Shown: positions 5,880 through 60,397 of the stretch, in pieces
How the letters are laid out: every line of letters starts with the position of its first letter
Position numbering within the stretch: position 1 is the first letter of the stretch
Origin: Diphasiastrum complanatum
Lineage: Eukaryota; Streptophyta; Lycopodiopsida; Lycopodiales; Lycopodiaceae
Length of the DNA stretch: 64,000 bases
Reading direction: 5' to 3'
Assembly (NCBI GenBank): GCA_029204225.1
Contig: CM055097.1
Span: forward strand, 46,870,617-46,934,616
Notes under the pieces: model-generated
What the model saw: the letters and a program-made list of their open reading frames with translations, nothing else
Told to the model about the DNA's origin: nothing
Databases searched by the model: none
Position numbers and translations under genes: made by a program

Positions 5880-5897
5880 CAATTTAGCTTGATGAGA

Positions 5898-38189: not shown

Positions 38190-38192
<3 letters not shown>

Positions 38193-38259
<67 letters not shown>
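38193..38259. repeat. (GA)n microsatellite, duplication copy 1
   Basis: About 67 bp of GA. The counterpart in copy 2 (41119-41173) is about 12 bp shorter. Confidence 0.97.
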
Positions 38260-38261
<2 letters not shown>

Positions 38262-38622
38262 TATCAGTTGAATTGTGCCAGGTCAACTAGGTATGGTAGT
38301 TTTTTACTCTCCTTTTTAGCATCTGACTAATGATTCAAGTTCATAAAAGCAAAAATTATGCCACACAATCAAGTTCTCGTTGCATTTACTTTCACCCTGT
38401 ACAGGCCAATGTCTACCATTTATATGCAGAGCCTGCTTTTAAGCATAAGCAAAGATGTTGTGCTAAAATAACAATCACACACAAAATTCTTGTTGGACCA
38501 AAGCAACAATCACATGCCATAATCTTGCTGGACAGAAGTATGTTATTGCACCTCTTAACTGATCGAGATATATGCACATGATAACAGCTAATCTAACACT
38601 GCCTCAAGCCTTGAAGAATTTA

Positions 38623-38721
38623 TCATATCAGATTATCTATATCATCAGATGATTCATTGTTTTGGTCAGACTTAACAATCCCAAGAAGCTTCCAGCCACC
38701 TGTTCCTGCAGATTGGAACGT
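38623..38721 (-). pseudogene. Duplicated terminal exon of the SixA-like gene (distal copy)
   Basis: Same acceptor (TTTGTGCAG), same 99-bp length and same TGA stop as the proximal exon at 41533-41631. It encodes TFQSAGTGGWKLLGIVK and an acidic tail. It differs by Ser instead of Pro after IVK and Asn instead of Ser nearby. It could still be spliced as an alternative last exon, because acceptor and frame are intact, but splicing would have to skip the proximal copy 2.9 kb earlier. Pro at this position is what I expect for the family, so this copy is probably the decaying one. Confidence 0.7.
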
Positions 38722-39016
38722 CTGCACAAACCATCCAAGCATAAGCATCTTGAAGGGTAGCTTGATTTATGGTTCAAGGCGTATTGCGCCATCATTAAAT
38801 AGCAGGGACAAATGCTTAAAAACACTGTTAGAATCAGCATGAACTTTTGGCAATAAATTCATTCTGAAAATAGTGAAAACTCAAAACATCACTTCGAACT
38901 GCAGAAGGATCTCATCATTCAGATACTAAGACGTCATTGTGGGACAATGAAAGGACACCATAACTATTAACTTCTTTCCTCAGTGAACAAATGGTTTCAT
39001 AGTTGTTTACTATCAT

Positions 39017-39122
39017 GTTAAAGCTGCCATGTTTGATTGTAACTTGAACCATGTATTAGCATTCTGTCTACACACAAATAGGGTAGTCATCCTTGATGGT
39101 TTCCAACAGATCACCATCATCC
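39017..39122. other. Rearranged duplication junction with inverted fragments
   Basis: 39019-39084 is the reverse complement of 41933-42000, the sequence that follows copy 2. 39085-39122 is the perfect reverse complement of 39145-39182 (38 bp, 22-bp loop). The two inverted pieces join the end of copy 1 to the start of copy 2. Confidence 0.9.
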
Positions 39123-39182
39123 AAGAATCATCGGTGTTGCTCTTGGATGATGGTGATCTGTTGGAAACCATCAAGGATGACT

Positions 39183-40016
39183 CTTCTTTATCCTCCTCCT
39201 GATGTGCAATGTTGTTTTGTTTGCTCTCTTGTGCCTTCTTCTTCTTGAGACATTCTGATGCAAAATGTCCTTTCTTTTCATAGAAAAAACATTTGTACTT
39301 TGACTTGTCTTTGACCTTGCTCTTTGAGCTTGAAGTCTCATCCTCCTCCTTGGTCTCCTTGAAGTGTTTCTTCTTGCCATTGGTCTTCTTCTTGTCTTGA
39401 CTTGTCTTTGACCTTGCTCTTTGAGCTTGAAGTCTCATCCTCCTCCTTGGTCTCCTTGAAGTGCATTGGTCTTCTTCTTGCCTTTAAATGAAAAATTAGC
39501 TTTCTCATCACCATCCTACAGAGAAATAACATTCATTCTTGCATTGATATGCATCATCCTACACTCTTGAGCCACTAATACATTGTGAAGCTTTTCTATA
39601 GTGGGCAAAGTGTCTTGGATTGCAAAGCTTTGGATCAAATTTGAAAAGTCATTCCCTAGACCATTAAGGACAATCTGAACAAGCTCATCATCTTGAATCT
39701 TCTCTCCAATGTAAGCTAACTCCTTATTGAGAGACTTGATTTTGAGCACATAAGCCTGTGCACTCTGATCACTCCTCTTCATGCTTTGTAGAATCTTATT
39801 CCTAAGCATGAGAATCCTCGAAGTGTTACTAGACTCTCATAGATTGATTTTAAAGATTCCCAAGCCTCTTTAGCACTAATACAAGTTGATACTTCTCTCA
39901 GTAAATCATTGCTTACATTCATCTTCACACAGTGAAGTGCAAGCCTAGATCTTCTCTTGTATTTAGCTAACTTCTGTGCACCTAGAGGTTTATAGTTCTC
40001 ATGAATCAAATCCAAA
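39183..40016 (-). pseudogene. Copia B gag, duplicate copy
   Basis: Contains the same UBN2 gag as copy 1. Here the middle part is more open: MLRNKILQSMKRSDQSAQAY, VLKIKSLNKELAYIGEKIQD, DELVQIVLNGLGNDFSNLIQ. The knuckle is again CFFYEKKGHFASEC. The 3' remainder of the element (protease onward) is absent because copy 2 begins inside gag. The Lys/Ser linker is partly duplicated (97-bp spacing). Confidence 0.88.
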
Positions 40017-40306
40017 ACTAATTAATGACAAATGATCTTGGTAGCTTATCCTAGGATTTGCACCAAAAATTGCATCAAATTGACACCAAATGAAATTACA
40101 GTGAACTAATGAATATGGGACTTTAAATGCTGGTTCAAAGTTGCCCACACGTGTGAACAATACGGATTTTGATCCACAAGAGGTTTGGAATCAAATCCCC
40201 TCACCAATTCCAGGATACCAACGCGCCCTTCCAATACTAGATTTTTGCACCAAAAACCTGCTAAAACTGGATTAGTTTTAAACACTGATCAATAGCCTTG
40301 TACTTG

Positions 40307-40318
40307 GCTCTGATACCA
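40307..40318 (-). other. Copia B primer-binding site, copy 2
   Basis: A perfect TGGTATCAGAGC on the minus strand next to the second LTR. Confidence 0.9.
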
Positions 40319-40647
40319 TGCGAAAAGTATAGTACTAAGGACCATAAATGGATCTTTGAATGATCCACAAGGGTGATTGTGTGCTTGTTAAACAATCTAT
40401 CAGATACTAGTCATCAGAAAACAAGATCTAGTCTAGCAGCTTGATAGAAAACAAGTAGAGACAATCAAAAACTTGATCATAAACTATAATCCGAGTTCCC
40501 ACATGTGAAGATCAGGCTGCAGTACAACCTGTAGACAGAGTTTAAAGTGTGCCAAAGCTGGGTTTCATTGGAATCAATAGCAATCACAATACATACAGAG
40601 AAAATCCGAGTTTCTCCTTGAGGCTCCAAAAAGATTCCATCTTCTCA
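40319..40647 (-). repeat. Copia B 5' LTR, copy 2
   Basis: Same length and ends as 37393-37721 with a few substitutions. It is a copy by segmental duplication, not a second transposition, since flanks on both sides also match. Confidence 0.88.
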
Positions 40648-41115
40648 TTATGGAGAATGGGAATACATAGTAAAAGACACTTCCTTTGCAAAGTTAGATA
40701 AGGAAGTAGACTCAACTTTCTTGCCCTAATGTGAAAACCCTAGCCTAGATCCAAGAGTCATGCTTGGTAGGTGCATGGTAGGTACAAATCTCATCATAAA
40801 TCAAGGTCTAGATCCTAAAAAGTAAGAATCACTACCAAATGGAGAGGAGTACAAGGTGGCCTTTGTATGTGTGGTTCCACCCTATCAACTCTTGTGAATG
40901 AAACAACAAAAGCATTTGTCAAATGTTTCAAGTCTGTTTGGTTGCTACCATGGTGTAATTCAAATAACTATATTAGCTCACCACAAGCATACAGTACTTA
41001 TACTTTGTTTGACTCGAATGTCAGCTTCTTACAAGTTATAGAGATGACAAGAGGAAATAACCCCATTATGCAAATTGCCCTCCCAAAAAAAATCCATCCT
41101 CCATGCTCCTAATTA

Positions 41116-41118
<3 letters not shown>

Positions 41119-41173
<55 letters not shown>
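41119..41173. repeat. (GA)n microsatellite, duplication copy 2
   Basis: About 55 bp of GA at the position equivalent to 38193-38259. Confidence 0.97.
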
Positions 41174-41175
<2 letters not shown>

Positions 41176-41532
41176 TATCAGTTGAATTGTGCCAGGTCAA
41201 CTAGGTATGGTAGTTTTTTACTCTCCTTTTTAGCATCTGACTAAAGACGTTCAAGTTCATAAAAGCAAAAATTATGCCACACAATCAAGTTCTCGTTGCA
41301 TTTACTTTCACAGGGCCAATGTCTACCATTTATATGCAGAGCCTGCTTTTAAGCATTAGCAAAGATGCTGTGCTAAAATAGCAATCACACGCAAAATTCT
41401 TGTTGGACCAAAGCAGCAATCACATGCCATAATCTTGCTGGACAGAAGTATGTTATTGCACCTCTTAACTGATCGAGATATATGCACATGATAACAGCTA
41501 ATCTAACACTGCCTCAAGCCTTGAAGAATTTA

Positions 41533-41631
41533 TCATATCAGATTATCTATATCATCAGATGATTCACTGTTTTGGTCAGGCTTAACAATCCCAAGAAGCT
41601 TCCAGCCACCTGTTCCTGCAGATTGGAACGT
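41533..41631 (-). CDS. SixA-like histidine phosphatase, exon 5 (last, proximal copy)
   Basis: The acceptor TGGTTTGTGCAG is followed by ACG TTC CAA. The exon encodes residues 248-279: TFQSAGTGGWKLLGIVKPDQ, then an acidic tail ending DNLI and TGA at 41533-41535. The GGWKL-G-IVKPD pattern is the conserved C-terminus of plant SixA-like proteins. It is the first acceptor of this kind after exon 4, so it is the default last exon. The 3' untranslated region would run toward the Copia B LTR at 40647. Confidence 0.88.
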   Translation of the reverse strand, partial: TFQSAGTGGWKLLGIVKPDQNSESSDDIDNLI

Positions 41632-42167
41632 CTGCACAAACCATCCAAGCATAAGCTTCTTGAAGGGTAGCTTGATTTATGGTTCAAGGCGTATTGCGCC
41701 ATCATTAAATAGCAGGGAAAAATGCTTAAAAACACTGTTAGAATCAGCATGAACTTTTGGCAATAAATTCATTCTGAAAATAGTGAAAACTCAAAACATC
41801 ACTTCGAACTGCAGAAGGATCTCATCATTCAGATACTAAGACGTCATTGTGGGGCAATGAAAGGACACCATAACTATTAACTTCTTCCTCAGTGAACAAA
41901 TGGTTTCATAGTTGTTTACTATCATGTAGTTATACCCTATTTGTGTGCAGACAGAATGCCAATACATGGTTCAAGTTACAATCAAACATGGCAGCTTTTA
42001 CATAACGGACATAGGTTGACATTGTTGTGCAGATTGACTGTTTAGAGTGAGAAAACCTAAGATAAATTTACCAATGACATAGCAAACCTGATTATGGCTT
42101 CGTCTGCAATCAATGTGTCAGTATCCTATTTTGTAAACTTATGACATTTACTTGAGCAATCAATGTG

Positions 42168-42541
42168 CAATAGCAAGAGCAACTTAGAGCAACATAACGT
42201 GATAAGATTGGTGCAAAAAACCAAAACATTCAAACTCTTCTCGTGGATTTGTACTCAAATGCGACGAGAAAATAGAGAGTAATTTCTATAATAACTGCTA
42301 GAACAGCGACGAATGCTGACCAGATAATTCCTAGCTAGAAAAGCAATCTCAAAACAATAGCAAGAGCAACTTAGAGCAACATAATGTGATAAAATTGGTG
42401 CAAAAAACCAAAACATTGAAACTCTTCTGGTGGATTTGTACTCAAATGCGACGAGACAATAGAGAGTAATTTCTATAATAACTGCTAGAACAGCGACAAA
42501 TGCTGACCAGATAATTCCTAGCTAGAAAAGCAATCTCAAAA
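42168..42541. repeat. 187-bp tandem duplication
   Basis: Two head-to-tail units start at 42168 and 42355 (caatagcaagagcaactt) and differ at only a few bases. They lie inside intron 4. Confidence 0.92.
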
Positions 42542-43169
42542 ACTATCATGGAAAGTACAGAGAAAAACCAATTGCATGTAATTACAGCTAGTGGTGTGAA
42601 AGTTGGATGTTTAAAATGGACTTCTAGTCTTCTATACTCAGAGATCTCAATCTTGAGGGAAAGGTCGGTCAAAAGCTGTGTTTTCAGCTTGGAATGCTTA
42701 AGATAAATGGGCTGCGAGTGGTGTGGGACCGGCTGCAACTGAAGCCTTCGTATCTGCAGGTCTCCGCATAATTTATGGTCACTGATGATCACTATGAAGT
42801 ATCGTGGTGGCCAAGTATGAATTGTTGTGTGAGTCTAACTCCTCTTTGTATCACCAAGGGAACACATCTCTCATCCCATGACCAAGCTTCCTAGAATGCT
42901 TCACGTGTTGCCAACTGGATCAAATTGAATTTCTTAGGCCCTAGCTTTGGGGTCCTAAACAAAAGTTCCTTTCTATGGTGGGTCTAGGCACTTTGGGTAA
43001 AAGTACCTTGGCAATGGTTGTCATAACTCTAACTGGAAACAATTCTCCAATTACCACTACTCTAAGGAAACTCACATCAAGTTGGTTCCTTCAAAATTAC
43101 GTGAGACCCATGGGTTCAATATGATTGGGTCACCTCATCACATAGAAATGGCAACAGATTGCAAACTTG

Positions 43170-43640
43170 AAAATTGTGCTAAAATTGTTAACACATCAAC
43201 TTAAGGGGAAGGGCAAGGAGTTCTTATTGTATGTTTTTAATCATGGTGCAACTTTAGCTCTGATGTTAACAGTGTTGGATCCAAATCAATCATTTATGGT
43301 TGAGACAAATGCTAGTGAGTTTGCAAGAGCAGTAGTAACTGTGGGAGGCCAATCGCTATGGAAAGCTAGATATAGCTCAATAGAAGTATAGAGCGTATGA
43401 GAAGAAACTCTTCTCGATTGTTCACGCCTTGAATACTTTGAGGCAATAATACTATGGTGCTAAATTTGAAGTTTTAAGAGATCATAAAAGTGTTAAATAC
43501 TTACAGAACCAACCTGAACCTCGGGGTTGGAAAGCTCAAGGGACAAAGTTAATGTAAGAATTTCATAAGAATGTAAGGTATCATCAGCGGAAGTTGTTTG
43601 ATGCCCTTAGATGAAGGCCTAACTTTACCAGGTTGAGTTT
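43170..43640 (+). pseudogene. Gypsy RNase H fragment
   Basis: DPNQSFMVETNASEFARAVV is the first RNase H block, with its Asp changed to Asn (TDASD to TNASE). It is followed by EKKLFSIVHALNTLRQ, AKFEVLRDHKSVKYLQNQPE, KAQGTKLM and, after a stop, RKLFDALR in place of VADALSR. Two or more stops are present. Ty3/Gypsy, same orientation as the integrase pieces to the right and opposite to the host gene. Confidence 0.75.
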
Positions 43641-43989
43641 TATTCGATTTCTTAGTCACTTCTAGAGTCCTTGAGGGGGAATGTCAACATGATGCCCATT
43701 TTTATATGCAGAGCAGTTAAGGATATCAAGTTCACAAGTGCCTAAAGGCAATTATTGTTGAGGCAAAATTACAAGTTCATTGGTGCCCAAAAGCACTTAT
43801 TGCTGAGGTGTACTTTTTGATTGCTTACCTAACATTGAGGATGAGGCATTTAAGAGAATGCTTGCAAAGAGTGTTGAGGATACAACCTTAACTAACGATC
43901 CCCGAGGAAGTAGAAAAGGACACCAATGAGGATGGTTAGTAACCCACAAAATTAAAGTGTGTTTCCTAGCAGTTAATTGCATTATCCGC

Positions 43990-44880
43990 TGATTTCTTTA
44001 TGAGTGTCATGATACTACAAGTGTTGGGACATCCTAAATTTCAGAAGACTAATTGCTTTTGAAGAGGGAATTCTTCTATCATCATGTATGCAAAAGGATG
44101 TTCGAGTATGATTATGGACCAATTGACTAACATGGCTCATTTCACTCCAGCTAGGAAAATTGTGAAAACTCCCAAATTAGCGAGGTGGTTCATGGAGAAT
44201 TTTCAAGCTTTAAGGGCTACCAAATGGTATCCTTAGTGATCAAGACAACAAGTTTGACAACCTCTTTTGGAGAGTTGTGTTTAATAGGTTAGATACTAAG
44301 TATGGGCATGATAGAGCATCCAGGACTGGATGGCCACACAAAGAAAGTCAATCAAGTTAGGATGCTCAGAATATGTGCGTTAGAAGCAAGCTAATTGTGA
44401 AGAGTATTTATCAACTTTGGATTTCTCTTATGATAGTGCCAAGCTTTCCTCAACGAAATACAACCCGTTTATGTCGATGTGGTTTTTAGCCAAGAGAAGC
44501 AATAGCGATAGGTTGAGAGAAAGATAAAGTGCAAGCAACAAAGAAGCTTCTCAAAGAGATGAACCAAATGGAAAGCACGCTAGAAAAAGCAAAAGAGCTC
44601 AAGATAGAGCTAGTGGTTACGCGAATCCACGAAGGTAGAAAATTGTGTAAAATGGAAGAGAAAGTATTCTTGAAGGAGCTTGAATCCTCAACCTTAAACA
44701 TTCATATATGTGCTAAGTTATCTTTGAGCTATTGTCGCCCTTATATGATACAGAAGAGAGTTGGTGAGGTTGCTTATAAGTTCGTGTCATATCAAAAAGT
44801 TGCCATGCCCATTCAGTTCATATATGCAGACTACAGAAAAGTTTGGGTGTGTCAAATAACCTTGTAGGGGATGAGACCGG
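43990..44880 (+). pseudogene. Gypsy integrase fragments
   Basis: YECHDTTSVGTS opposite the HHCC finger (ECHD...GH), then LKREFF, DQLTNMAHFTPARKIVKTPK and LARWFMENFQALRA from the core. DGHTKKVNQ stands where DGQTERVNQ is expected, so the catalytic Glu is replaced by Lys. The open frame at 44529-44867 ends with LSLSYCRPYMIQKRVGEVAY, the C-terminal integrase block (LRYCGPY.I.KRVG.VAY), preceded by a charged helix. Decayed copy of a chromovirus-like element. Confidence 0.75.
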
Positions 44881-45625
44881 TAATTATACTCATAGGACAA
44901 GATATCGACATGAGAGAGATGTCTGCATGAGATGTTTCCTGATCTATTGCAAGAATGCAAACATTTCTAAGAGGAATGGATTGTTACAACAATACCTCGT
45001 ACCCAAGGGGCTAATCATGAAGAATTGGACAGTGAACATGGGAGTATGCCCTACTATTGGGTTTGCCCTTAGGTAAAGGTCAAGGTGGATATATATGAAG
45101 AACCAACAGGGCACATATAAGCAATTAGAGGAATGACATGCTAGGTTCAATGGGGTCGTCAAGTATGATGTATAATCTCTTTAATAGATAGTCAGTTCAG
45201 ATAGCAGTAACAAACTGAAACCTTGAAATGAATTATAAACAATTGATTTTCTTAATCATTTCCTTGAATTTGAGGAATCAATATCAACTGATTCCTTGGG
45301 AAATTTTACTTTCTTGGGCCAATCTATTTCAAGGTAATAGCTTGTGAAAATCAGAGTCTTTCTCTAGAATGGATACTAACCTCATGAACTATCATACATG
45401 CTTTAGGAAAAGCCCTGAGAAGTAAACTCTGATTCAGAAGTGGCTTACCATGATTGTAATAGTTCCCTGAGATTGAATGTTGGTCGATAAGGTATGGTGT
45501 CATGCAGTGAGAAGTGCCATTTTTCAGAGATTTATCGCCTTCTACAAGTGCTACAGACTTAATTAGGCATTGTGTCTGTCACTATTTATGGGTTATCAAT
45601 CATATTTAGATAGCAAACTACATAC

Positions 45626-45743
45626 TTCATCCCATGAGGCACCATAAGCTTCAAGAAGAGCGGCATTTGCTGTTTTCAGCTCAACTGGTACACCAGAAAA
45701 CATGCTAGCAGCTTCTTCCCATCCCCTGTTATGCCCCATACAC
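45626..45743 (-). CDS. SixA-like histidine phosphatase, exon 4
   Basis: Acceptor TTTTTTGCATGCAG before GTGTATGGGG; donor GAA|GTATGT. It encodes the end of Met208 and residues 209-247: CMGHNRGWEEAASMFSGVPV, ELKTANAALLEAYGASWDE. GHN carries the second catalytic His (His212), which completes the phosphate pocket with the RHA motif of exon 1. The exon is uninterrupted and strongly family-like, so I am confident. Confidence 0.93.
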
Positions 45744-47517
45744 CTGCATGCAAAAAACATGGATAAGAAGCCAGCTAGAACAGGATATATTCTGGTTAGT
45801 GAAGATTGTCTAAACACATGCTCCCCCTAATAATCTACTAATAACAATGGAAGTTATCAACCACCTTGGAGATCGATCGATCTCACTTTAGTATAGCCTT
45901 TCAGTAGCACCTATTACCAGCTAAATCCGTTCAATTTTCTATGCTTCTACAAATAGGTCACTTTAGATCTTATATTACTACAGCTCTTTCCATAGCATTT
46001 CTTATGAGCTCATTCCTTTCACTTCTCTATGCTTCTACAAAAGAATTACTTTGGAGGCTACCCCACGTGCTTCAGCAGGATAAATTCTGAATTGATGTAA
46101 AAGAGAACTTTTGCATCTGTCAAAAAGAAAGTTCCATGCATCTCTTTACTCAGCTAAAAAAGACACTCTCTTTAAGTACTTAAGAACTTGCAGGCATTCC
46201 ATAAATCTGGGACACAACAACAAAGCTAGTTGTCAGATATAAGCAGTCTCTCCTTGAGTTAAAAGCCTTCGAGCCCAATTTTCAAGAATACATCTCAGAA
46301 ATTAAGAATAACAATGCAGTTAGAGTAGACTGTTGCCAGTGGCCTCATAAAATACAACAACCAGAAGATGTAACCTCCGAAGCCATTGGTTAAATATGAC
46401 GGGCAGTTTAAACATCAAAGACTATTCTGAACATATTAGACAAGTGACACGGTGTTTAGAATGTCAACTGTCGAGGAAAATTTCTTAATTATGCCATTGT
46501 GAATGGGAGATTAATAAGTAACCTCAACTTATTAAAAAGAATTATTAGTTTCTAGGAGCTTGAGTAGCAAGTGCCATGAGACGTGTCAACATGAAAAATG
46601 TTCGGACTGAAAATGATGCGAATAGAAAGTGTTGCTAGGCTTCAGCAGCTATGAACATGGACTTATAAAGGCTTCAACGTCGAGCCGAATTAGATAAAGT
46701 GTCTGGTGGCTTACATATCTATAGCTTCATAGTTGGAACCATAATAGTCTTATGAAGGGTATTTTTCAACTTTCTCATTTTTCTCAATTCCAAATTCACC
46801 ATGTACCCTTTCATTAAATAGCCCTACTCTTGTACTACTTTGCTAGATCTTATTGGCTTATGGCTCTGGCCTGTTTAAAGAACATTTTAAAACTTGCTCC
46901 AAAAATTTCAACTTGATAAAACGGATCTGTACTCTAAAGCAAAGGTCATCATGAACCATAATGGACCTAAAAAGCCTTGTGATTGCAAATTTAGATACCC
47001 ATCATAAGGGATCCCCGAAAAAGTTCGCTATTGGATAAGAATTTTACTTGTTAAGAGATCATGAAGTCAATAACGCTTACTATGATGCATTGGTTTGAGT
47101 GCCTAGCTGTGTGATGCCATGAAATGTGAGTAGGAGTAACCATTATGTGGCTTAAAAAACGATCAGGACTGCAACCCACTTTGTTCATCAGAGACTTACA
47201 TCACCTTTTGTCATGAGCTGAAAAAGAGTACAATTGAAAACACACACGTTGCCTCCGCAAATTTTTTGGCAAATGTCATGTGAAGGCCATTGATCATGTA
47301 CTAAAGAAATCACGTCAAACTTAATTGACAGGTCACCCTAAATGCCAAATTTCAACATTATTTGAATCTGTCTTTCACTAATGAACCTTGATGACAAGCT
47401 GCTTATTTCACTACAATCACTACAATCTTTCTGTCATCTTACATCTCATTAACGACTACATGCTACTCTAGGCAAACACATAAAGAAACAGCGCAACAAG
47501 AATAAAGTCCTGCTTAC
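45744..47517 (-). other. Intron 3 (1774 bp)
   Basis: Donor AT|GTAAGC, acceptor GCAG|GTG. No transposon domain is visible in it. It is the only intron of the gene that looks free of recognisable elements. Confidence 0.85.
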
Positions 47518-47697
47518 ATTACTGTAGTTGTGTTGTCTTTAGAAAATCTGCAGACAGTTTCTTGTAAATGCTTAGTTGTTTCACCATCCATTGCTGCTAT
47601 TGCATAATAGCTGCCCAAAAAATGGACTTCTGCTTCCAAGTACTCCAAAAAGTGTTGCTGCATAATGCCTAAAGTCTCCCGGGTGCGGATGGAATCA
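47518..47697 (-). CDS. SixA-like histidine phosphatase, exon 3
   Basis: Acceptor TTCTGAATATGCAG before TGATTCC. The exon is 180 bp and completes Ser148, then residues 149-207 and two bases of Met208. It encodes SDSIRTRETLGIMQQHFLEY, EAEVHFLGSYYAIAAMDGE and TTKHLQETVCRFS. RTRET is the conserved Arg-containing turn after the SSDA segment, and SYYAIAAMDG with the following HL is typical of SixA-like phosphatases. The frame joins both neighbours exactly. Confidence 0.93.
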
Positions 47698-47829
47698 CTG
47701 CATATTCAGAAACTTGCATATGATCACTCTTCAACTCGAAATGAATCTGTTATTCTGGAATCTCTCTGCTTATGGACTGCATGATGGGAAACAACTGTTT
47801 TGATAATTACGTCCAAAAATTTACCAGGT

Positions 47830-48470
47830 TCTAAGCAAGGTACCCTTGTTTCATTCAAAGTTGTTGCAATGGAATTTTATTAGTGATTTGCCAGTCGATT
47901 ATCGGAATGAGTGCACGCGAAATGTGTTACAAGCTCTTGAGGATGCCATTTGGTGGATGGAGCAGAAAAACTCAATTTCTAACACCATGATAGTGGATCC
48001 AGGAGGTAAATTCTCAATATTGAAAATCAGTTTGATTGATGGTTGTTCATGTGGATGTCTCTTTAATATGAATTCTTTCAAACTTATTGATTTGTTTCAA
48101 GTGAGGCGCAAGAATTTAGGGGAGAAAGTGAAGTACTATTTGATTCCCGTTCCACTCACAACTTTATAAATTCTTCTGTTGTGCAGAGACTTAGATGGTG
48201 AAGAACAATCACAAATATAAGGTCAATTGGCAAAGGGTATAGATACCGAGGTGTGGAGCATTTAGGTTCCATACATGAAGTAAGATCTGCAACACATCAG
48301 CGAGAAAACTGATTTTAACATTATGAAATTAGATAGAACTTATGTTTTTTAAGAAATCTGATGGACTAAAGATAGATTATAAAAGCCATCAGCTGAGTTT
48401 CTCAGTTGATGGTAAGGTAGTTTCCATTATCGGAATAAAGAGTTCATGTACTGAGCCAACCATTTCGGTG
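47830..48470 (+). pseudogene. Chromovirus gag-protease fragment in intron 2
   Basis: NVLQALEDAIWW corresponds to VLQNLEDAFRIA in the chromovirus at 19968-20640. GGKFSILKISLIDGC corresponds to the pre-protease region. The protease loop, in a shifted frame, reads LFDSRSTHNFINSSVVQRL, with the D-S-G Gly changed to Arg. The knuckle region between gag and protease is deleted. A further open frame at 48342-48440 matches the protease-RT linker. Opposite orientation to the host gene. Confidence 0.75.
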
Positions 48471-48559
48471 AGTAGAAATAGAGTCCGCGGCATCTGTGGA
48501 CGGCTCGTCGGGCTCAGCAGCTGTCTCAGAATATGTCTCCATAATGCGAGCCCTCTCCG

Positions 48560-48717
48560 CAGCGGGGATGACCATACAAATGCCCTCCATCCCTCACACC
48601 CTCACACTCTCTGTCTCTTCCTCTCTCTCTCTCTCTCACACAGATCACCACACACACACAACTGAATGCACACAAATCAACACACAATTTTCACACACAC
48701 ACACACGCACACAAACA

Positions 48718-48775
<58 letters not shown>
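48560..48775. repeat. Compound CT/CA microsatellite
   Basis: Mixed ctctct and cacaca runs, ending in about 55 bp of pure CT (48721-48775). Confidence 0.95.
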
Positions 48776-48777
<2 letters not shown>

Positions 48778-49046
48778 GCTCTTCCGCCCTTGTCCACTCT
48801 CTTCCTGCTCTCGGGTTCTGCGGACTGTCCGCAGGGCCTGCGGGTTTTTGCTTTTTTTTTTTTTTTTTTTTTAAAAAAAAGCGCGTCCGGGGCCCCCAAC
48901 GCATCCGCGTCCAGACGCTGGACGCGTCCAGCCCTTAAAAAAAAAAAAATTTAAAAAAAAAGGACGCGTCCGACCCCGCGTCCGGGGGTCGGGTCGGACA
49001 CGTCCGGGTCCGGGCGTCGGACGCGGGCACTTCGGCCCGGACCCTC
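48776..49046. repeat. GC-rich palindromic block with A/T tracts
   Basis: CpG-dense sequence built around the words gcgtcc and ggacgcgtcc, interrupted by long T and A runs. 48917-48932 (GCTGGACGCGTCCAGC) is a perfect 16-bp palindrome. It abuts an AT microsatellite. Probably part of a non-coding DNA element; no transposase. Confidence 0.5.
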
Positions 49047-49053
49047 ATGTCTG

Positions 49054-49055
<2 letters not shown>

Positions 49056-49104
<49 letters not shown>
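49056..49104. repeat. (AT)n flanking the fold-back element, left
   Basis: About 49 bp of alternating AT immediately left of the terminal inverted repeat. Confidence 0.95.
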
Positions 49105-49108
<4 letters not shown>

Positions 49109-49360
49109 TAGGTCCCGTGGTACCGGGTACCGCAGATCTCGGTACCGGGGGACCATACTCGTACCGCTGTACCGTACCGGTCCCACGTTACCAAAAAAAA
49201 AAAAAAATTCTTTACAAAAATCTCGGGAAAAAATTTTAATTTTTTTTTTTTTATTATGGTACCACCCTGGTACTGCGGATCCCAGGGCGGTACCGTACCG
49301 GCGGTACCACTGTTATGGTACCGGCGGTACCATAACAGCGGTACCACAGGGCACTATGAT
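49105..49360. mobile_element. Fold-back element inserted in an AT microsatellite
   Basis: The ends ATCATAGGTCCCGTGGTACC (49105-49124) and, read on the other strand, ATCATAGTGCCCTGTGGTACC-like sequence (49340-49360) form imperfect terminal inverted repeats. The interior is full of ggtaccg words and has a poly-A/poly-T rich centre. AT dinucleotide runs lie on both sides. The arrangement is like the Micron MITEs of rice, which sit in TA microsatellites (family knowledge), though I claim no sequence relation. Confidence 0.65.
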
Positions 49361-49384
49361 ATATATATATATATATATATATAT
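49360..49384. repeat. (AT)n flanking the fold-back element, right
   Basis: About 25 bp of AT dinucleotides to the right of the element. Confidence 0.93.
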
Positions 49385-49900
49385 TTGAATGTCATGACAC
49401 ACCTTGTGTTGGTCACGCGGGCATACACAAAATATTAAATTTGGTGCGAAGGAACTTCTTTTGGCCAAAGATGAAACTTCTCATAGAATCTTATGTTGCT
49501 AAGTGTAAACAGTGCCAAATGGCTACAACCGATCGCTTTAAAGTTGGAGGACTGTTATTACCATTGGAGATACCATCTAAAAGGTGGGAGAGTATTTTGG
49601 TGGATTGTAATTGGTCCTCCCAGGACGTTGAAAGAAAATGATGTTATTTGGGTAATAGTTGATCACCTTACCAAGTTAGCCACCTTTATTCCTGTGAAAA
49701 TGACCATAAAAGCTTCTGATTTAGCCCAAATCTTTGTGGAATGTTGTTTGAGTTGTATGGTTTGCTTTTAGATATTGTTAATGATCATGATTCCAAATTC
49801 ACTAGACATTTCTACTCAGTCGTATTCATAAACACTTCAACTTGGAGCTGCCCTTAGGTTCAGTTCTTCTTATCATACAGAATCAGATGGTCAACTAACC
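49385..49900 (+). pseudogene. Chromovirus integrase fragment in intron 2
   Basis: ECHDTPCVGHAGIHKILNLV, FFWPKMKLLIESYVAKCKQC (H2C2 finger complete), GGLLLPLEIPSKRWESILVD (first catalytic Asp), WVIVDHLTKLATFIPVK and KASDLAQIFVE match the integrase at 22900-24020 closely. It has a frame shift after ILVD. ESDGQ near 49890 is the third motif; then sequence jumps into the region before reverse transcriptase. Confidence 0.85.
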
Positions 49901-51180
49901 TTACTAAGAACCTAGATCGTCATATTAGGGAAGAGTTCATGGATGTGTTCACGAGGGAACTTCCTTCTATTTTACCCCCTAAAAGATATGTGGAACATAA
50001 GATTGAGTTCATTCCTGGATCATCTCCTATTAATAGACCACCTTATGAAAGGAGTCTAAAAGAGGAGGAAGAGATGTGAAGCATGATTGAGGACTATCTT
50101 GCCAAAGGGCAGTCAAGATCTGGCTTCTTCCCCCTTTGCCTCTCTAATCATTCCGGTGAAAAAGAAGGATGGGTCTTGGAGGATGTGTGTGGATTTATCG
50201 AGGCTTGAAAAAGATAATTGTTAAGCATCAATATCATATGCCACGCATAGATGATCTTTTAGATGCCCTTCATGGTGCTACAATGTTTAGCAAAATTGAC
50301 TTGAAGAGTAGTTATCACCAGGTGAGAGTTCGCGAAGAGGATGTGTATAAGACTGCCTTCTGAACTCGCTTTGGACACTATGAATTTCTAGTTATGCCTT
50401 TTGGATTGACTAACGCCCCTGCAACATTTATGATATTAATGACCGATGTGCTTAGCCCATTTATTAACAAATTTGTGGTTAACTTTGTTGATGACATCCT
50501 TGTTACATTTGTGCTAATGTTGTGCATGTAAGTCACCTTAGAACTGTGTTGTCAACTTTGAGGGAAAACGTATTGCTAATGATAAAAAGAGTGAATTATT
50601 TAAAAGGAAATTGCATGTTTGGGTATATAGTGTCAGCGCATGGGATAAAACCAGATCCTTAGAAAGACTTTTGTTCTTCCAAAATTGTAGCTACATTCAC
50701 TCTAAAAATTGTTGACCTCATAAACTATTTGTTGTGGAAACGGATGCAAGTGACATTGTCGTTGGGGTAGTTCTGATGCAAGAGGGTAGGCCTGTGGCCT
50801 TTGAGAGCAAGAAGCTCAACCCTGCATAGAAGAATTATCCAACTCATGAGAAGGAATTGTATGCCATAGTCCACGCTTTGAAGGCATGGAGGCATTATAT
50901 GTGTACACCGATATGTTACAGAAAAATAAGTGAAAAGAATGGATGAAGGTTCAACAACAAAGTTTCAATGCTTTGCAACAAGTTGTGACTAACTTCGTCA
51001 CTCTAAAAATTGTTGACCCTCAGAAACCATTTGTTGTGGAAATGGATGCAAGTGACATCACCGTTGGGGCAGTTCTGATGCAAGAGGGTAGGCATGTGGC
51101 CTTTGAGAACAAGAAGCTCAACCCTACACACTTGGACACTTGGTCCAGTGAACGAGTGACATGTCATGGGTTGACATGAC
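49901..51180 (+). pseudogene. Chromovirus reverse transcriptase and RNase H in intron 2
   Basis: EFMDVFTRELPSILPPKRYV opens the pre-RT part; PRIDDLLDALHGATMFSKID, LKSSYHQVRVREEDVYKTAF, a stop, [19 protein letters not shown] and [11 protein letters not shown] follow. The catalytic box is FVDD, with both Asp intact. RNase H appears as KPFVVEMDASDITVGAVLMQ preceded by the normal connection WMKVQQQSFNALQQ. A second partial copy of the same RNase H segment lies 301 bp to the left (50698-50828 against 50999-51127). Confidence 0.85.
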
Positions 51181-51290
51181 ATGTCACAGGCTGACTAGAC
51201 CAAGTGAACGAGTGACATGTCATGGGTTGACTGGTCAAACATGACATGTCACGGGCTCACTAGACCACTTGGTCCAATGTATGAGTGACA
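51133..51290. repeat. Tandem repeats with internal 12-bp inverted repeats
   Basis: The phrase gaacgagtgacatgtcatgg occurs twice. Each unit also contains atgacatgtcac, the exact reverse complement of gtgacatgtcat. acttggtcca-like ends flank the array. Confidence 0.8.
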
Positions 51291-51429
51291 AATTTCAACT
51301 TACTCGCCTATGCGTTGGGAAACTGCCAAGTGGCAAGTGTCGACTGTGCATGGAATTGACCATGTGTTGACGTTAGGAGAGGGTTAGGGTTAAGGGGTGC
51401 TTGAGGATTGTGCATAAGTGAGATATTGG

Positions 51430-51431
<2 letters not shown>

Positions 51432-51491
<60 letters not shown>
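51432..51491. repeat. (CT)n microsatellite
   Basis: About 60 bp of CT. Confidence 0.97.
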
Positions 51492-51493
<2 letters not shown>

Positions 51494-51529
51494 AGACACT
51501 TAGACGCTCTTTTTTCTTTCCATACATGG

Positions 51530-52753
51530 TGGGATTTGCCAGTGAATGTGGCCAAGACTAAGGTTATGGTGTTCAACACCTCTAGGTCCTTCATGATGCA
51601 GCAGGAGCTTCTATGGGATGGTCATCCACTTGAGGTTGTTGATTCCTATACATACCTAGGGGTACTATTCTCGAAGCCCACGTTCAGCACGAGACTACTC
51701 TTCAGCTCACACATCAGGGATGCGACCAGTAGGTGCCGACTCTTTGACACTATGGTTGTGCCCTCAGCTATGTATGTCGCCGTGACAAGGAGTACTGGTC
51801 TAACAGCTACTGATTGGACATACATCTCCCGGCTCCAGATTCGAATGCTCTCTCGGATGATATAGGCTAAGCCCTCAGTACCACATCAGATTATATTGGC
51901 AGAGTTCACAGTCTCCCCCATTCATATTGAGGCCTTATTCCATATTGTCATATTTATACAGAGGTTGGAAGATTTTCAAGAAGGACGTACACACTATGTT
52001 GTTGCCGCTCTATCTTCATCTCGGTGTCTACGCTCAGAGGGACACCTCTTCTCATGGTATTCCTAGGCTTGTCGTATCCTCTACACATTGGGTATCCAAA
52101 TTATTGACCTACCTGCGGGCACCCATCAGTACATCAAAGGCCACCTCTACAGATTATATCTTCATAGCACCTGGCAGGGTCCACTGGGGACCAAGAGTGG
52201 GTTCTACCACACACACTTTCTATCTCTTGATCCAGCTGGCTGCCCCATAGTACGTGACTACTTACTGAGGAGTATATCACACAGACTGCGGAGAGTGATG
52301 GGTCAATTTCGGGTTTCCTCACATCAGTTGGCCATTGAGACCTAGATACAATGGCACCCCATGAGAGGGCCAGCTTTGTAGCATGTGTGTTATGCATGAG
52401 ATTGAGGACGAGTCACATTTCAAATGTCCAACCTACTATGAGATTCGGGGGATTGGGGGAGGCACTACTGCTTGTTCAGGGAGCACCCAGTTACGCTTTC
52501 TACCTTGATATCCTATGAGGACCCCAGATGTGTCGCACTGATGATCCGGGAGATGTCAGACTTGAGGAGGAGACTGGATATTGATGCACATTCCTTGTTA
52601 CAGCTGAGCATCAGTGAGTGCATATCCCGTCGGAGACAAAGATGTGAGGTACCTCTAGGCTATGATTCAGATGGAGAGGCCGAGATTTCGGATTCTTTAG
52701 CAGAGACAGTGTTAAAACCCAGAGCGCCACGGCAGCAGAGACGACAGCGATAG
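51530..52753 (+). pseudogene. LINE (non-LTR retrotransposon) 3' fragment
   Basis: VNVAKTKVMVFNTSRSF then HPLEVVDSYTYLGVLFS is the end of a non-LTR reverse transcriptase (K-T-K-VMVF and YLGV blocks). Further on, CVMHEIEDESHFKCPTYYEI matches the C-terminal Cys-His segment (C...E-x-E-x-HF..CP.Y..IR) of LINE ORF2 proteins. The frame is shifted several times. The tail ends with an Arg-rich segment at 52740. The 5' part, including endonuclease and the YxDD box, is missing, as is usual for truncated LINEs. Confidence 0.75.
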
Positions 52754-54650
52754 CCTACCAGGCGGCAGAGGTCCATGGCACATCCAGTGACAGCTTCACA
52801 GCATACCATCCATCATTTCTTCCATGTTGGTGGACATCATGATGTACTATTCTAGGCTGGTGGACCCTGACTAGGCCAGCCATCTCATGCATTGTATAGA
52901 CAGTTTTAGTTTGCAGTTATCGATTTTATAGGTGATTGAGCTTTAAGCTCCTATGACACTTGACATGTACCTTTTCTTAGTCCTACGTATCCTTAGGGTA
53001 TTCAAGGATGTTAATAAAATCTTTCTTTCTCTCTCCCCCTTAGAAAAGGAGAAAAACCTTGATTTTCAGCTCAAAAAAGCTCGTTTGACCTTACCTTTAC
53101 TTCAAATGGGACTCGCAGTGTACAAATATTGGGGAATCGAAGTGTCCCAAATACTTTGTGGACATGGAAATAAGACAAATGAGTGGATAGAAATCTTATT
53201 TTGCAATGGAACAATCATGTCCTCAATTTAATCCATGGAGATTTCACAAAAAGAGGAAACTATTTTGAACATAGGTCGCTTTGATCTTAGTTTTTAGTGG
53301 TGAGAGTGGGGGATGAATCATTACTAGAGCTAAGTGGGTCGAAATTGAGAGAGTGCAAAAGCAGTTTCTTACCACACATAAAAGTGAAGCAAATAACACC
53401 TAATCCTTCCCCTTGGGTGAAAGCAATTTCCTCCCATGGGGAGCCATAGACATCATGAGAACAATTAGTTATATAGAGAGGATTTCACATGGAGATCGCC
53501 TCTTGAAGGTAGCTATGTAAAGTTCCTAACAACCTCAAAGGAATGGTAGGCGTTCAGATTATTTAGAAGGAGCACTTATAGAGGAAAACACAATACTACA
53601 AGGATCAAATAAGTCCACATGTAGGATACTTGGTGCAATAGCAAAACAAAGGGGATGTTTCAATCAAGAGAAATGAACTGACCTAATTTGAAATGGAAGG
53701 GACACATTCATGGTATAGTATCAAGAAAATTTGCAAAGAGTAATAAATGTCAAGGTATTGACAACTTTCCAATGAACAAAGATAGAATGACCAATGATAG
53801 AGTACTTTTTAATGCTTCCTAGAAAAGAGCTTACTACCTCGGCTCTCCTGCATTCAAGGACTCCAAACATAACTAACAAGTTCGTTCGCCAAGGCAGTAT
53901 TTACAATGTACAAGCTCCTACAAGCTCCAATGCCTCTCAAAATGAACATATGAGCGTTTGATTGACTAGGGCCCTAACCTAGTGACCAGAAGTCAAAGTT
54001 TGGCCCATATTGTAGCTCTTATAGTTTGAAAACTAATGGGTATCCTAATGGCTCAAATCATAAAAATTCCTTGATTAACCATTGTGAACAAACAAGGTAC
54101 TTGAGTGTATTGAGAAAACGATGAAATGAATCAAGTAGAATGTGTATGTAAGCATCCACGGCTTGTAAATCAAAAACCTTATTACTACAAGGCAAGAACA
54201 ACAATGATTTGTATGCATTCCAAAAAAAATTTGAATTTTGAACATGAATGAGCCATTTCTTCATCTTGTGCAAGTGCCAATCAATTGCCATTGGATTTAT
54301 TGTCCAATCACATTTCGTTCTACTCCATAATTTATGCATGCCATAGTTCTTATAGTTGCTACTTTATGGGAATAAGCGGCATTTTTTTTCAATCTTCTAT
54401 GAGGGGGTCTTACACTTACCACATAAATCTCCAGTGGTCATGCAAAAAGTTTTTACAATATTTGTGTAACTTATGAGGATCTTGTTCATTGTGCAACACC
54501 GGAAGTGTCAATATAAACCAATAAGCTTATTTGTGTAAAATGGTAATATAAACAAATAAGTTGCTCATGTAAAACATGAATGTTTATTGCCTCATATACG
54601 ACAGATTTACTTAATTTCATGAATTGGTGCAAATTAGCCAAATAAACAAC
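52754..54650. other. Unassigned part of intron 2
   Basis: No known domain. Open frames at 52953-53231 (plus) and 54058-54339 (minus) have no recognisable motif and no coding-like neighbours, so I treat them as chance. Confidence 0.5.
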
Positions 54651-54750
54651 CTGCACAATATGATTTCTGGAATCCATCCTTTTTCTCTCAACTTGGCCGC
54701 TATATTGGCTGCTGCCCTACGCCCACGCGTGCTTAGAGGTCTTTCGTGAT
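54651..54750 (-). CDS. SixA-like histidine phosphatase, exon 2
   Basis: Acceptor GCTGATACAG before ATCACGAA; donor TTGTGCAG|GTTGTT. The 100-bp exon completes Asp115 and encodes DHERPLSTRGRRAAANIAAK, LREKGWIPEIILC and two bases of Ser148. DH-RPL-x-x-G is the signature that follows the RHA motif in SixA and related phosphatases, and GW-P--IL precedes the SSDA/RT turn. At 100 bp it is easily missed by ORF length filters. Confidence 0.93.
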
Positions 54751-57700
54751 CTGTATCAGCAATATGCATCATCAATATGCATCTCCATTAGCTAGAACTG
54801 ACATTCCTGTGAAACCAGATCCTTAATAAGAAGAGTTATGCAACCATTCAATCAAAACGTTTGTCTAATAAAAAGACAATGAATAACAGATAGAATATCA
54901 GCCAAGGAAGTGCTATATCCAAAAAGGCAAGGCATCAATCAAAACGTCAAGGATTATAAGAATCTCAAAGAGTTTTTCTTCCCACTACAAGACCTCAAGA
55001 TGTCATGATCTTTCTTAGGATTACGCTTCAGTAATCCTAAGAGGGTATTTGACTAATATCAAATCAATACAAGCTTGATTGATTGCAATTTTTGATGTTG
55101 GATTATTTCCTCAAAAGAAGTTTGAAAATGAAAGTAATCCATAAATAACAAAAAAGAGTTTCCAGGTGGAACAAGAAAAATTATCTGTAAACATCCAAGT
55201 ATAGTTTAGTAAATAGGGGTATGACAATCATGTTGCAAGCCAGCATCTTGATTTATTGATATTGTTTTTCATACTTGTCGTTTGAAAAAGGTCTTACATG
55301 ATGGACATAATTGGCTACTTCATGGTAAAGCTCTTCTGTAGGAATAGGGGAGAGTGAAGCATGAACTAGCAAAGTTACTGAATAGAAAGGAGGTAATTGA
55401 GAAGTTATTCTAGTGTGCATACTTAAAACACATGGCATGGCCTCGAGAGACTAGCCAACATATCTGTCACTTCTCCACAGGTGGAGGAAAGGTGCAAAAA
55501 TGAAGAAAATGTGCAGTATTGAAGGTAGCAATAAATATCAAATTCAATCATTGAAGCCTCAACTTCTCCATTGCAAATAAAAGAAAATTTGCATATCCAA
55601 CAAGGAACGTCTCTTCTATACCTTGAATTGCCACATCTACCCACATGTAGATGAGGGAGCTGAAAGAAAAAGATCTATCAATATTAAAGGTCTAGGATAG
55701 TGCTTCAACATAACAAAAAAGAGATGCACAATCTTTAGATCTATGTAGTCCACCATCGAAGTATCAGTCAAATGAGGTCCCTACTTCACCAGAGAACATA
55801 AAGGATACTACATAACATCAAGTCAACTTGCTCTATCAAAAGTAAACTAAGAGTTAGCTGGTGTAAAACATGCCACTAAAGATGGATAATATTAGAGCAA
55901 AGCAGACAGCCACAAATTGGACAAAGATCACAATGAGATCTTTGTGTCCTGAATATGGCAGAAACATATATTGTAGTGCCTGAAATTAGTAAAGAAGAAA
56001 GACGTGCAGGTTTTAACTCTATGAAGTTCACCCAAAAACATCAGACCATCAACTCCATCATGAATAACACAAACCAACTGTACATCTATACTCGTCATCA
56101 ATGACCAAAATTCCGTACTAATCACATGCATTAAAGACACATCTGCTATAGCTTTAATACATTCATACAAAGAGCTATGTGCTTAGCGTCTATCACTTTT
56201 CTCAAGCTCAAGTGCAGACTCAACCATGACGAAAGCTAGAAACAAAGGCAAAGCCAACCGTATAAAGTGCCTACTTTCTCACAAGAAGGTAAGGAGTATA
56301 ATGTATCATCAGCTCAACTTCCTTAATCAAAACTAAACCTAGACAAGGTAGCTAGTGGGCAAAAGGCACCACTAAAGATAGTATAAATGAACTAGCTAGC
56401 TACAACTTGGACAAACATCTAAAATGCGACAAAAAAATATATCAATGTTTAGAAAAGAACCTAAACATAACTTGAAAGAGACGCGCAATCTTTTAACTCT
56501 ATGGAGTACACACAAAATAGAACAATGCTATAGAATTCTTGCTCATGACATTAGTTTCCAAGAGTAGGTGCAAGTCACATGCATTGAAGATGCATTCGCT
56601 AGTTACATTCATAGAAATACCATTGTGTTGAGTTTCTATCGATTGTGAAGGGCCAGACTCAATCATGATGAAGGTTAGCACTAAAGAGCAAATGCAATGA
56701 AATGAGGCCTCTACTTCAGTCTTCATCATAGAGATGTAAGGATATTACATGTCATCACTTCAAACTTAAACTTGGAGACCGTAGATGGTGGAAAAAAATC
56801 ACCACTAGAACAAACCAATTTTCTACGACTTCGACAAAGGTCTCAAATGAGAACTGAGCTCTCACAAGCATCAAGATTCAGGATCACTTGTAGATATGAT
56901 CTCCACCAACTCACAAGACTTGTAAAACAAGTGATTAAGATTCAAGAACAACAAGCTAACATCTAGAAAGCAAGAAGAAACAAACTACTACTTGGCCTCC
57001 AAAGACAATGCAAATGTAGCACCAAATCACAACTTTGCATTAGCTTCTCAAAGAGGTTACGTGGATATACATACAACACGTCCTTAATCTGAGGTTTAGG
57101 GTTTCCAATAGCTCATTGTAGCCCAAAACCTAATTGCTAAACCCTAATATCAACGATCTCTATAGGTATTTGCCCATTCTATTGTTTACATCAAAATTGA
57201 CTATTTATCTACTTTCTAGACACATTGTCCAAAGTGAACTTTGTGCTTGGTCAAAGCTTGAGTTTGGAGGTGCTCCACGTTTACAAACAAGTTTAACACA
57301 ATGCATTTGAGCATATTAGAAAGTAGCTTGAGTGGCCAAGTGACCATGATTCTATCAAGTTAACTTTTACTATATTTTAAAACTTATAGCCTAATGCAGA
57401 CAATATGGGTTTGCTAAGTGCTTATGATTTCTCTCTCTCTTTCGAATTAGCTACTCCTTAAAAGTATACTTTTTCTCTTTAATCCTATAAAAGAAAAAAT
57501 AAAAGACACGAAAATAAAAGAGAAGATAGTGTCCATATTAGATGTGTCACTATCACCTATACCAATTTTCCATAATGTAATGGAAATGCAACATGAAAGA
57601 GAACATGTGCTGATAATATATGAGTTCCTCCATGCTTCCATTACCAAAGTCCAGCCACCATATGTGACATCATCCATTTAAATAAGTGCTTGACTGCCTT

Positions 57701-60054
57701 TGCCATATTGTACCTCACTTGAGGTGAGTACAACAACATGATTCATTCATGAGTATGAATCATCAGCTTTGTCATGAAATGTGTCACGCTTGGTGAGTAG
57801 GTGATTATATGACCCTTTTGACGGTCCCCTTTCATGAACACAACCTAAAACAAGTGTTGGATATCTTGATCATTCTCCGTAAGCAGAGCTAAAATCCCTA
57901 GAACATGAAATGTGAACAACTTGTCGTCCACCAATTTCCCCTTTTAGAATTTTGTATATCTTGAAATATAAGGAACTAGGTCAAAGATCATAAATGCGAA
58001 CTATCTGTTTGTTAAATACAAGACAAAGCATATCCATGTTAATTCTAGGAACACAACAACAAAGAGACATGCAAGCTTCACCCTATGGCGTCCACTGACA
58101 AAGCATGAAACCATAAACTTCATCACACAAAGCATGAACCAATACTATGGCATCCCAACTAATTTCGCCACCATGAGTAGGAACAAGCCTCATGCACATC
58201 CATATTCGCTTTTGTAAATCTAGACAAAGACTAGTGTGTTGAGATTATGTCCTTTCCCCAAAGTGAAGGATAGACTTAGCCATAAAGAAACCTAGCACTA
58301 AAGAGCAAAGTTAATCAAATAAAGAACTTTATTGGAAACATGTAAGGAATGTGACATATCATCACTTCAGCTTGCTCAATTAAGACTAAAAGTAGAGAAA
58401 GTATATGGTAAGCAAAACACACCACCAAAGATAGGAAATATTGGAACAAACTCATTGGCTACAACTTGGACTAATAAATACTACATGTTTGCAAATAAGA
58501 CCCAAAAAGTATATAGATGTTAAATTTAGCGGAAGAAATGTAGGTAATAAAAACGAGAGATGTACACATGGTTCCTAGGAACAAGCAACAGAAAGCCATT
58601 GCTTGTGTCCTATGTTTTGTGATGCATGTGAATGTAAAATTCTTTTGCTAGTCAATGCTAAAGTTCTTTTGCAGGAGCAATGCGAAGGGAATCAAGACAA
58701 AAAATGGTAGTGGGCATAAAAGAGAGATAGGTCACGAGTCTTTGCTGCATGATTTCTTGGTTGTTATATGCTATTATATACTTCTTCGGTGTTCTTGTAT
58801 TGCCAATGGTAAAAATATATCATTACACAAATGACTAAGTGACCGGTCTAGAGGAATGCACTCACATTTGATATGTAGATCCTTGGAGTTAACTGGATTT
58901 GATACATAAGCCTCCTCAAAATAGTTGAGTTAGCAACCAGTCACATGTCCTAAGAAATGTGGTTAGCATGAGAGAACCTAAGTGACATGATAGTTTTAAT
59001 TACTCCTAAAGCTCTTGCATGGTAGCCAAGGTAGTATCATGTAGCATGAGCTAATGAATGATGGGATGCAGTCTAGTAAGGTGCTGAGAAAAGAATGATG
59101 GCAATCTTTAAGGAGGCCTACGATTTCATTGGTCTAGCAAGGTGCTAAGAAAAAAATTGTGACAAATTTTGAAGACAGGCCTCCCGATGTGCAGTTGGGT
59201 GGGTGGTGCATGTTCTTATGTTGAAATCACTTAATTAACTTCTTTTTATTTCTTTTAAGATGGTCTTGTAGAACTCTTTATTCACATCCACTTCAGAGAA
59301 TGATACACTAATGATGGGAAAACAAAAGAATAAGTACTAAGTTCTAACATATAGTGTACATTCTCTCATATCACAACATGAACAAGAAAAAAAACTTATA
59401 AACGAGTAGAACAAAGAAAGAGAATTTCGCAACTGGCCATCCATGTCATTTTTACATGCATACCATTGCCAAGCCATCCACACTACTGAAAATTTGGACC
59501 TAACCACCTAGTCGAACCCAACGCTATGTCTATTTCTTATCATGTGTTCCTAAAAATGTAATGCCAAGTGTCATTTTTCCTTTTGATTTCAGAGGCACCT
59601 CAAACAACACAATATACTTCTGCTTGCCACACATTAAAACTTAATGTCAAAATGTTCATGTGGACCGTTAGAGATGGACACTTAGCGCTTGAACCTGAAC
59701 TAGGTGTGACTAAACAGTTGTCCAGAAGAACCTTCAGACAAAAGGTCTGACAGAATCAACAGCCAGTATTACAATTTCTAATTTTACATATGGTTATGCA
59801 AAAAAAAAAACCTCACATTTGGCATTACATGAGAGAAGGCCCCAGAGCTCATGCCTTCCTCCAAGGTCAGGCCTTACCCTCAGGCTCAAGCCTCAAGCAA
59901 AAGCCCTCCCTCAAAGGAAGGCCCTCAATCCTGGGCCTCTCCCCCCACAAAATGGCATCCTGATAGGCCAACAAAGGAAGCAAGCTTATGTAACAGCTAC
60001 AGGAGATCCTAATCTGTATTTTCTCTGGCAATTACAGAGGAGGGAAGGAGAAAC
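54751..60054 (-). other. Intron 1 (5304 bp) with degenerate long repeats
   Basis: Donor CGAG|GTTTCT, acceptor ACAG|ATC. No transposon protein is recognisable. Between 55700 and 58500 a block of a few hundred bases recurs in diverged form. Landmarks such as caccactaaagatag lie near 55865, 56372, 56807 and 58425, each preceded by acatatcatcacttcaact-like and agcactaaagagcaaa-like words. Confidence 0.75.
55740..58450. repeat. Diverged long repeats in intron 1
   Basis: At least four similar segments with landmarks near 55865, 56372, 56807 and 58425; spacing is about 507, 435 and 1618 bp. The unit is non-coding. Their origin (transposon or old tandem duplication) is unknown. Confidence 0.55.
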
Positions 60055-60397
60055 CTCGGAGCGAACGGTTAGTCCACGAACTCTTGGCATGTCGAAGGAG
60101 TATGAGGCGACGAGTACATGGCACCAAAATTGGCCCAGCCTTTCTGCCTCCCACCATTTTCTGCTGCACACTACGTTCCACATTCATCCTCCAAGAGGGT
60201 CGACAAACGGATGTATAGTTCGGCATGCTTGGCCAAAGCCCCTGCCCTCTATGCCCAAGTTGTGATGACATTTTCAAGTTTGTTAAGAAACCGAAGAATG
60301 CCCTTGGAGGGTTTGAGTTTTGCTCAGTTTGCACATTGTTAAGCCGTCCTCTGAAGCTGGCCCCTGTTGATGGAGCTAAAGCTGCTTTCGTAGCCAT
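60055..60397 (-). CDS. SixA-like histidine phosphatase, exon 1
   Basis: ATG at 60397-60395 is the first Met of the frame; an in-frame TAG lies 36 bases upstream (60434-60436), and the context AAT-ATG-G is favourable. The exon encodes residues 1-114 and the first base of Asp115. Residues 1-95 (MATKAALAPSTGASFRGRLN..., rich in Ser, Arg, Asn and poor in acids) look like an organelle transit peptide. RRLILLRHAKSSWTNRSLR (96-114) holds the catalytic Arg102-His103. Donor GAG|GTTTCT. A plus-strand open frame across the same bases is its antisense shadow. Confidence 0.92.

Follow-up and report, generated by a model that had tools for sequence, protein, structure and literature searches.

A five-exon nuclear gene for a SixA-type histidine phosphatase with a duplicated last exon in the lycophyte Diphasiastrum complanatum

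Gene structure and genomic context

The stretch of DNA analysed here (the window, 64,000 nucleotides) corresponds to positions 46870617-46934616 of contig C6 in the 1.74-Gb assembly of the lycophyte Diphasiastrum complanatum, and its minus strand carries a real and ordinary five-exon nuclear gene. The five peptide pieces quoted in an earlier note on this DNA were all located on the minus strand in the order claimed, and a splice model was built by listing the splice-compatible pairs around them. All four exon junctions were GT-AG with phases 1, 2, 2, and 0, and the exon lengths (343+100+180+118+99) summed to 840 nt, or 280 codons including the stop, so that the splice listing bore out the exon structure proposed in that note in full. 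The spliced product comprises 279 residues plus the stop, and introns 1 to 4 measure 5304, 6953, 1774, and 3994 nt, respectively. Other frame-compatible splice pairs were also present, among which homology and a public protein (see below) select. The coding exons, with the E values of a profile search described below, are as follows:

60055-60397, minus strand: exon 1, 343 nt, ending in phase 1; the first ~94 residues form a leader, followed by RRLILLRHAKSSW, which includes R102 and H103 (profile E 1.2e-9)
54651-54750, minus strand: exon 2 (DHERPLS), 100 nt (profile E 8.6e-13)
47518-47697, minus strand: exon 3 (RTRET, R152), 180 nt, occurring once in the assembly (profile E 2.1e-29)
45626-45743, minus strand: exon 4 (GHNRGWEEAA, H212), 118 nt, ending in phase 0 (profile E 8.3e-23)
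41533-41631, minus strand: exon 5A, 99 nt, the proximal of two terminal exons, which contains the stop and agrees with the public protein at P265 and S269 (profile E 6.6e-7)

Searches of the product against proteins and Pfam, which the earlier note had proposed as a check, returned an identical public protein, land-plant relatives, and a His_Phos_1 match. At an E value of 0.001 or lower, the protein search yielded 841 proteins, of which 120 were listed, and one of these, O6H91_06G092600 (hypothetical protein, P0001) of D. complanatum, showed 100% identity and coverage to the 279-aa product, in agreement with the claim of a complete gene. The 06G in its tag agrees with contig C6. The gene is already present in the public annotation and is thus not hidden, contradicting the expectation that annotation would call the region repeats only. 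Since no other locus of the assembly encodes the protein, the public model and that of the earlier note must have the same junctions, and the gene structure as modelled is virtually certain.

For the profile search, the identical public protein was excluded and a profile built from 31 relatives was run against 2071 six-frame stop-to-stop segments of the window of at least 20 aa. The five exons were matched together with a sixth segment at 38626-38766 (E 1.3e-5), the remaining four matches in the window reached only E 3.7 to 4.7, and the same profile found no match at E 10 or better in the reversed window (2141 segments). A chance assembly of motifs was ruled out by the identical public protein and this profile search. 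A six-frame His_Phos_1 scan of the whole assembly gave 18 matches, none of them in the window, indicating that exon-sized pieces escape simple scans, as the earlier note had anticipated. In addition, a tRNA scan found no genes, Rfam gave no matches at gathering cut-offs, and 65 pattern matches in viral contigs included no relative.

Retroelement debris and other repeats

The Pfam scan of the window, covering 150 of 156 frames, was dominated by retroelement families among the 23 families listed in a table without frame names. Two introns contain recognizable material:

47698-54650, minus strand: intron 2, 6953 nt, with retroelement pieces in antisense orientation, namely Integrase_H2C2 (49360-49638, plus strand) and RT_RNaseH_2 (50934-51176, plus strand)
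41632-45625, minus strand: intron 4, 3994 nt, with SH3_Tf2-1 at 44517-44864 (plus strand), below the cut-off (26.3 vs 30 bits), and a 187-bp tandem repeat at 42168-42541

The description of the region as transposon-rich holds for the 3' side and for introns 2 and 4, all of which have retroelement pieces; four intron-1 frames (55426-55674, 55931-56182, 56502-56744, and 57972-58214) had no Pfam match.

Several further repeats were observed in the window. A 528-aa frame with Copia gag domains (6321-7907, minus strand) lies between direct repeats, 5529-5625/9133-9229 (95%) and 5682-5869/9294-9481 (99%), and the region 5529-9481 is possibly a short Copia-type element. A frame at 22966-23481 (plus strand), with Integrase_H2C2 above and rve below the cut-off, is a Ty3-type remnant. 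A 300-nt repeat is present in three copies 93-94% alike (13278-13577, 37396-37695, and 40322-40621), two of which sit in the duplication units described below, the third (13278-13577) lying 24 kb off. Related stretches 75-78% alike occur at 10321-10814 and 32566-33059, with 22.2 kb between them, and two adjoining arrays of 34-bp tandem repeats at 24172-24454. Moreover, 270-nt direct repeats at 27810-28079 and 29816-30085, 95% alike and 2 kb apart, are perhaps an LTR pair.

Tandem duplication of the last exon

The sixth segment matched by the profile belongs to a second terminal exon. Exon 5 lies in a tandem duplication, which the earlier note had missed, and a 551-base stretch around it occurred twice in the assembly, both times inside the window:

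39121-41927, minus strand: tandem unit A, which takes in the terminal 296 nt of intron 4, exon 5A with its 3' flank, and gag sequence of a Copia-type element
36282-39018, minus strand: tandem unit B, with the same content but exon 5B in place of 5A; identity to unit A is 98.4% over ungapped columns, and there are 108 gap columns
39015-39126, no strand assigned: unit junction, in which pieces from close to either end of the duplicated stretch (41933-42003 and 36302-36343) recur in inverted orientation
38623-38721, minus strand: exon 5B, the second terminal exon, with acceptor, frame, and stop as in 5A and the changes P265S and S269N (profile E 1.3e-5)

Between the two units, 43 substitutions were counted over 2718 ungapped columns, the main BLAST block being 97.1% identical, and Pol_BBD and RVT_2 pieces were found only beyond unit B, down to ~34826. 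The tandem duplication copied the last exon along with gag sequence of the neighbouring Copia-type element, and the junction may be the product of template-switching repair.

Exon 5B is fully open, and its 20-nt acceptor stretch is identical to that of 5A. Both of its substitutions alter the protein, although two are too few for a selection test, and replacing 5A by 5B lowered the profile score only slightly, from 352.7 to 348.4 bits. Position 265 is Pro in all 120 listed family rows and Ser in exon 5B, indicating that 5A is the conserved form at that position and that 5B is probably a spare in decay. Exon 5A, the presumed working copy, is the one present in the public protein, and the distal 5B is most likely drifting; it is highly probable that 5B is essentially unused.

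Protein family, predicted fold, and active site

The product matched Pfam His_Phos_1 (PF00300) with 32.8 bits against a cut-off of 21.7, residues 98-163 aligning to positions 1-66 of the 194-position profile. The best solved relatives by sequence were SixA chains, whereas the cut-off of the NCBIfam sixA equivalog (TIGR00249) was missed (30.5 vs 74.5 bits), and the product is therefore classed as SixA-like and not as SixA. The catalytic His with its preceding Arg, the second Arg, and the second His of branch 1 histidine phosphatases are all present: R102, H103, R152, and H212 were retained in 120, 119, 120, and 120 of the 120 listed rows, respectively (the public copy of the query counted), and presumably act in catalysis as in the histidine phosphatase superfamily.

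A structure predicted with 32 sequences had a mean pLDDT of 75.5, with a confident domain at about residues 91-270 (block means 72-98) and a low-confidence leader. SixA chains occupied ranks 1-9 among the fold matches of this model, the order being the SixA proteins of Agrobacterium and Nakamurella, then Nostoc alr0221, RosC, and E. coli SixA (1ujb, rank 13). The top match, SixA 2rfl (2rfl_E), had E 1.8e-12 and a TM on target of 0.79, compared with 0.82 for 1ujb, and the predicted model displays the minimal core fold of SixA type. Judged by profile, active-site residues, and predicted fold, the product is a SixA-type branch-1 histidine phosphatase, as the earlier note had maintained on motifs, and confidence in the fold and active site is very high.

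Weighing the locus

The locus might be a pseudogene, or a silent copy of a gene whose working paralogue lies elsewhere. Long introns with retroelement debris would suit such decay, but they are also a feature of active plant genes, and no other support for this reading was found; the frame is open throughout and keeps the active-site residues. Moreover, the protein gave six strong matches in its own assembly, all at the locus, with the next at E 0.034 (12 of 12 candidates scored), and the DNA of exon 3 is single. A second copy of the whole gene was not found by this protein search of the 1.74 Gb, nor was an intact paralogue, which the earlier note had named, together with silence of this locus, as a finding that would speak against it. 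A dead copy beside a working paralogue was accordingly rejected, and any such reading is extremely improbable.

The duplication allows two further readings. The tandem units could be an assembly artefact, with two haplotypes placed end to end, given that haplotypes can differ at the level of 43 substitutions in 2718 columns; the two inverted junction pieces, on the other hand, form a pattern of repair synthesis that would be unexpected from an end-to-end join, which leaves an artefact quite unlikely. If the duplication is natural, exon 5B might serve as an alternative terminal exon, 5A being sometimes skipped to yield an isoform that carries P265S and S269N and has a separate 3' end. Its acceptor, frame, and stop are intact, and mutually exclusive use of tandemly duplicated terminal exons is reported for Drosophila pip (PMC9013439). 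Against this stand the proline at position 265 in every listed row, the change of the protein by both substitutions (too few, as noted, for a selection test), the use of 5A in the public protein, and the position of 5A: lying nearer and having a 3' flank of its own, it would normally be encountered first. Such use of 5B is unlikely, and it is decidedly improbable that a new alternative last exon has arisen here, through template-switch repair that also carried along a retrotransposon fragment, and yields an isoform altered at the otherwise invariant C-terminal proline. The best explanation as a whole, held with strong confidence, is an ordinary gene for a SixA-type, probably plastid protein with a duplicated last exon.

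Possible location and function

Removal of the four introns from the transcript would give a precursor with the leader followed by the SixA-type domain. By composition, the leader (95 residues) contains no Asp, 2 Glu, and 12 Lys+Arg, which would fit a transit peptide, and relatives are named chloroplastic by their sources; the leader is probably a plastid transit peptide, and a plastid location is considered likely.

The enzyme would probably remove phosphate via a phospho-His103 intermediate, and by analogy with E. coli SixA its likeliest substrate class may be phosphohistidine on a plastid protein, perhaps a plastid nucleoside diphosphate kinase (NDPK). Plants possess a plastid NDPK, which makes it the first candidate substrate, at low confidence. 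Plants would not be expected to contain NPr and the nitrogen PTS, on which E. coli SixA acts. In E. coli, SixA is reported to dephosphorylate the phosphohistidine of Ndk (PMC12934123), to target the phosphocarrier NPr (PMC7948535), and to affect the nitrogen PTS (PMC6282199).

The enzyme might instead have a small phosphate ester of the plastid as its substrate, like many members of the superfamily, since the lower fold matches include phosphoglycerate mutases, MutT1, RosC, and the riboflavin-pathway phosphatase 9mmh, and the sixA equivalog cut-off was missed. However, SixA proteins with the minimal core head both the sequence and the fold matches, and two of these are annotated only as putative phosphohistidine phosphatases. 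A small ester as substrate is given slightly under an even chance, and phosphohistidine as the main substrate is put forward tentatively, at rather less than even; the two are about as likely. Plastid phosphohistidine phosphatase is the best inference for the function. A role in riboflavin biosynthesis, though possible, was dropped: the 9mmh fold match ranked 38 (E 1.1e-7), and although a histidine-family phosphatase is described as performing a riboflavin biosynthesis step in Aquifex, the phosphatase reported in the same source for the Arabidopsis step is of HAD type (PMC12051542).

Comparison with known relatives

The second terminal exon is the one new detail at this locus, the gene and its family being already known. 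The last-exon duplication provides a modest natural example of a gene with two nearly identical terminal exons, and the locus as a whole illustrates that a split gene spread over 18.9 kb of plant DNA can be read from raw sequence with each splice site correct. In O6H91_06G092600, the protein is the same over all 279 residues and has its only strong genomic match at the window locus, whereas exon 5B and the tandem duplication are invisible in the protein record.

Judging by best matches, the gene appears orthologous to a family common among land plants, "uncharacterized protein At3g52155, chloroplastic", a name found in none of the open-access literature searched. All 119 other listed relatives, ranging from liverworts to flowering plants, were 62-72% identical over residues 95-266. 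The active-site residues are the same in this family (e.g., P0012 of Vitis riparia and P0006 of Selaginella moellendorffii), whereas the N-terminal leader is not conserved between the product and its relatives. Four insertion sites relative to the product lie inside the domain among these 119 relatives, and only two insertions exceed one residue, each in one row: 29 residues after position 114 in P0014 (a liverwort) and 2 after position 247 in P0052 (a flowering plant). These coincide exactly with junctions 1 and 4 and look like mis-spliced models at shared introns, which suggests that introns 1 and 4 may be old.

Bacterial loci were found by a scan with plant peptide patterns, and 80 of 183 relatives were kept, mostly with 29-42% identity, so that the product is closer to the At3g52155 family; the highest values were 42% over ~170 residues (L001, L002) and 61% over 62 residues (L019). 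Compared with bacterial SixA (2rfl of Agrobacterium, 4hbz of Nakamurella, and 1ujb of E. coli), the plant product has the predicted fold and the RHA and GHN motifs in common, but it falls below the NCBIfam sixA equivalog cut-off and carries an N-terminal leader.
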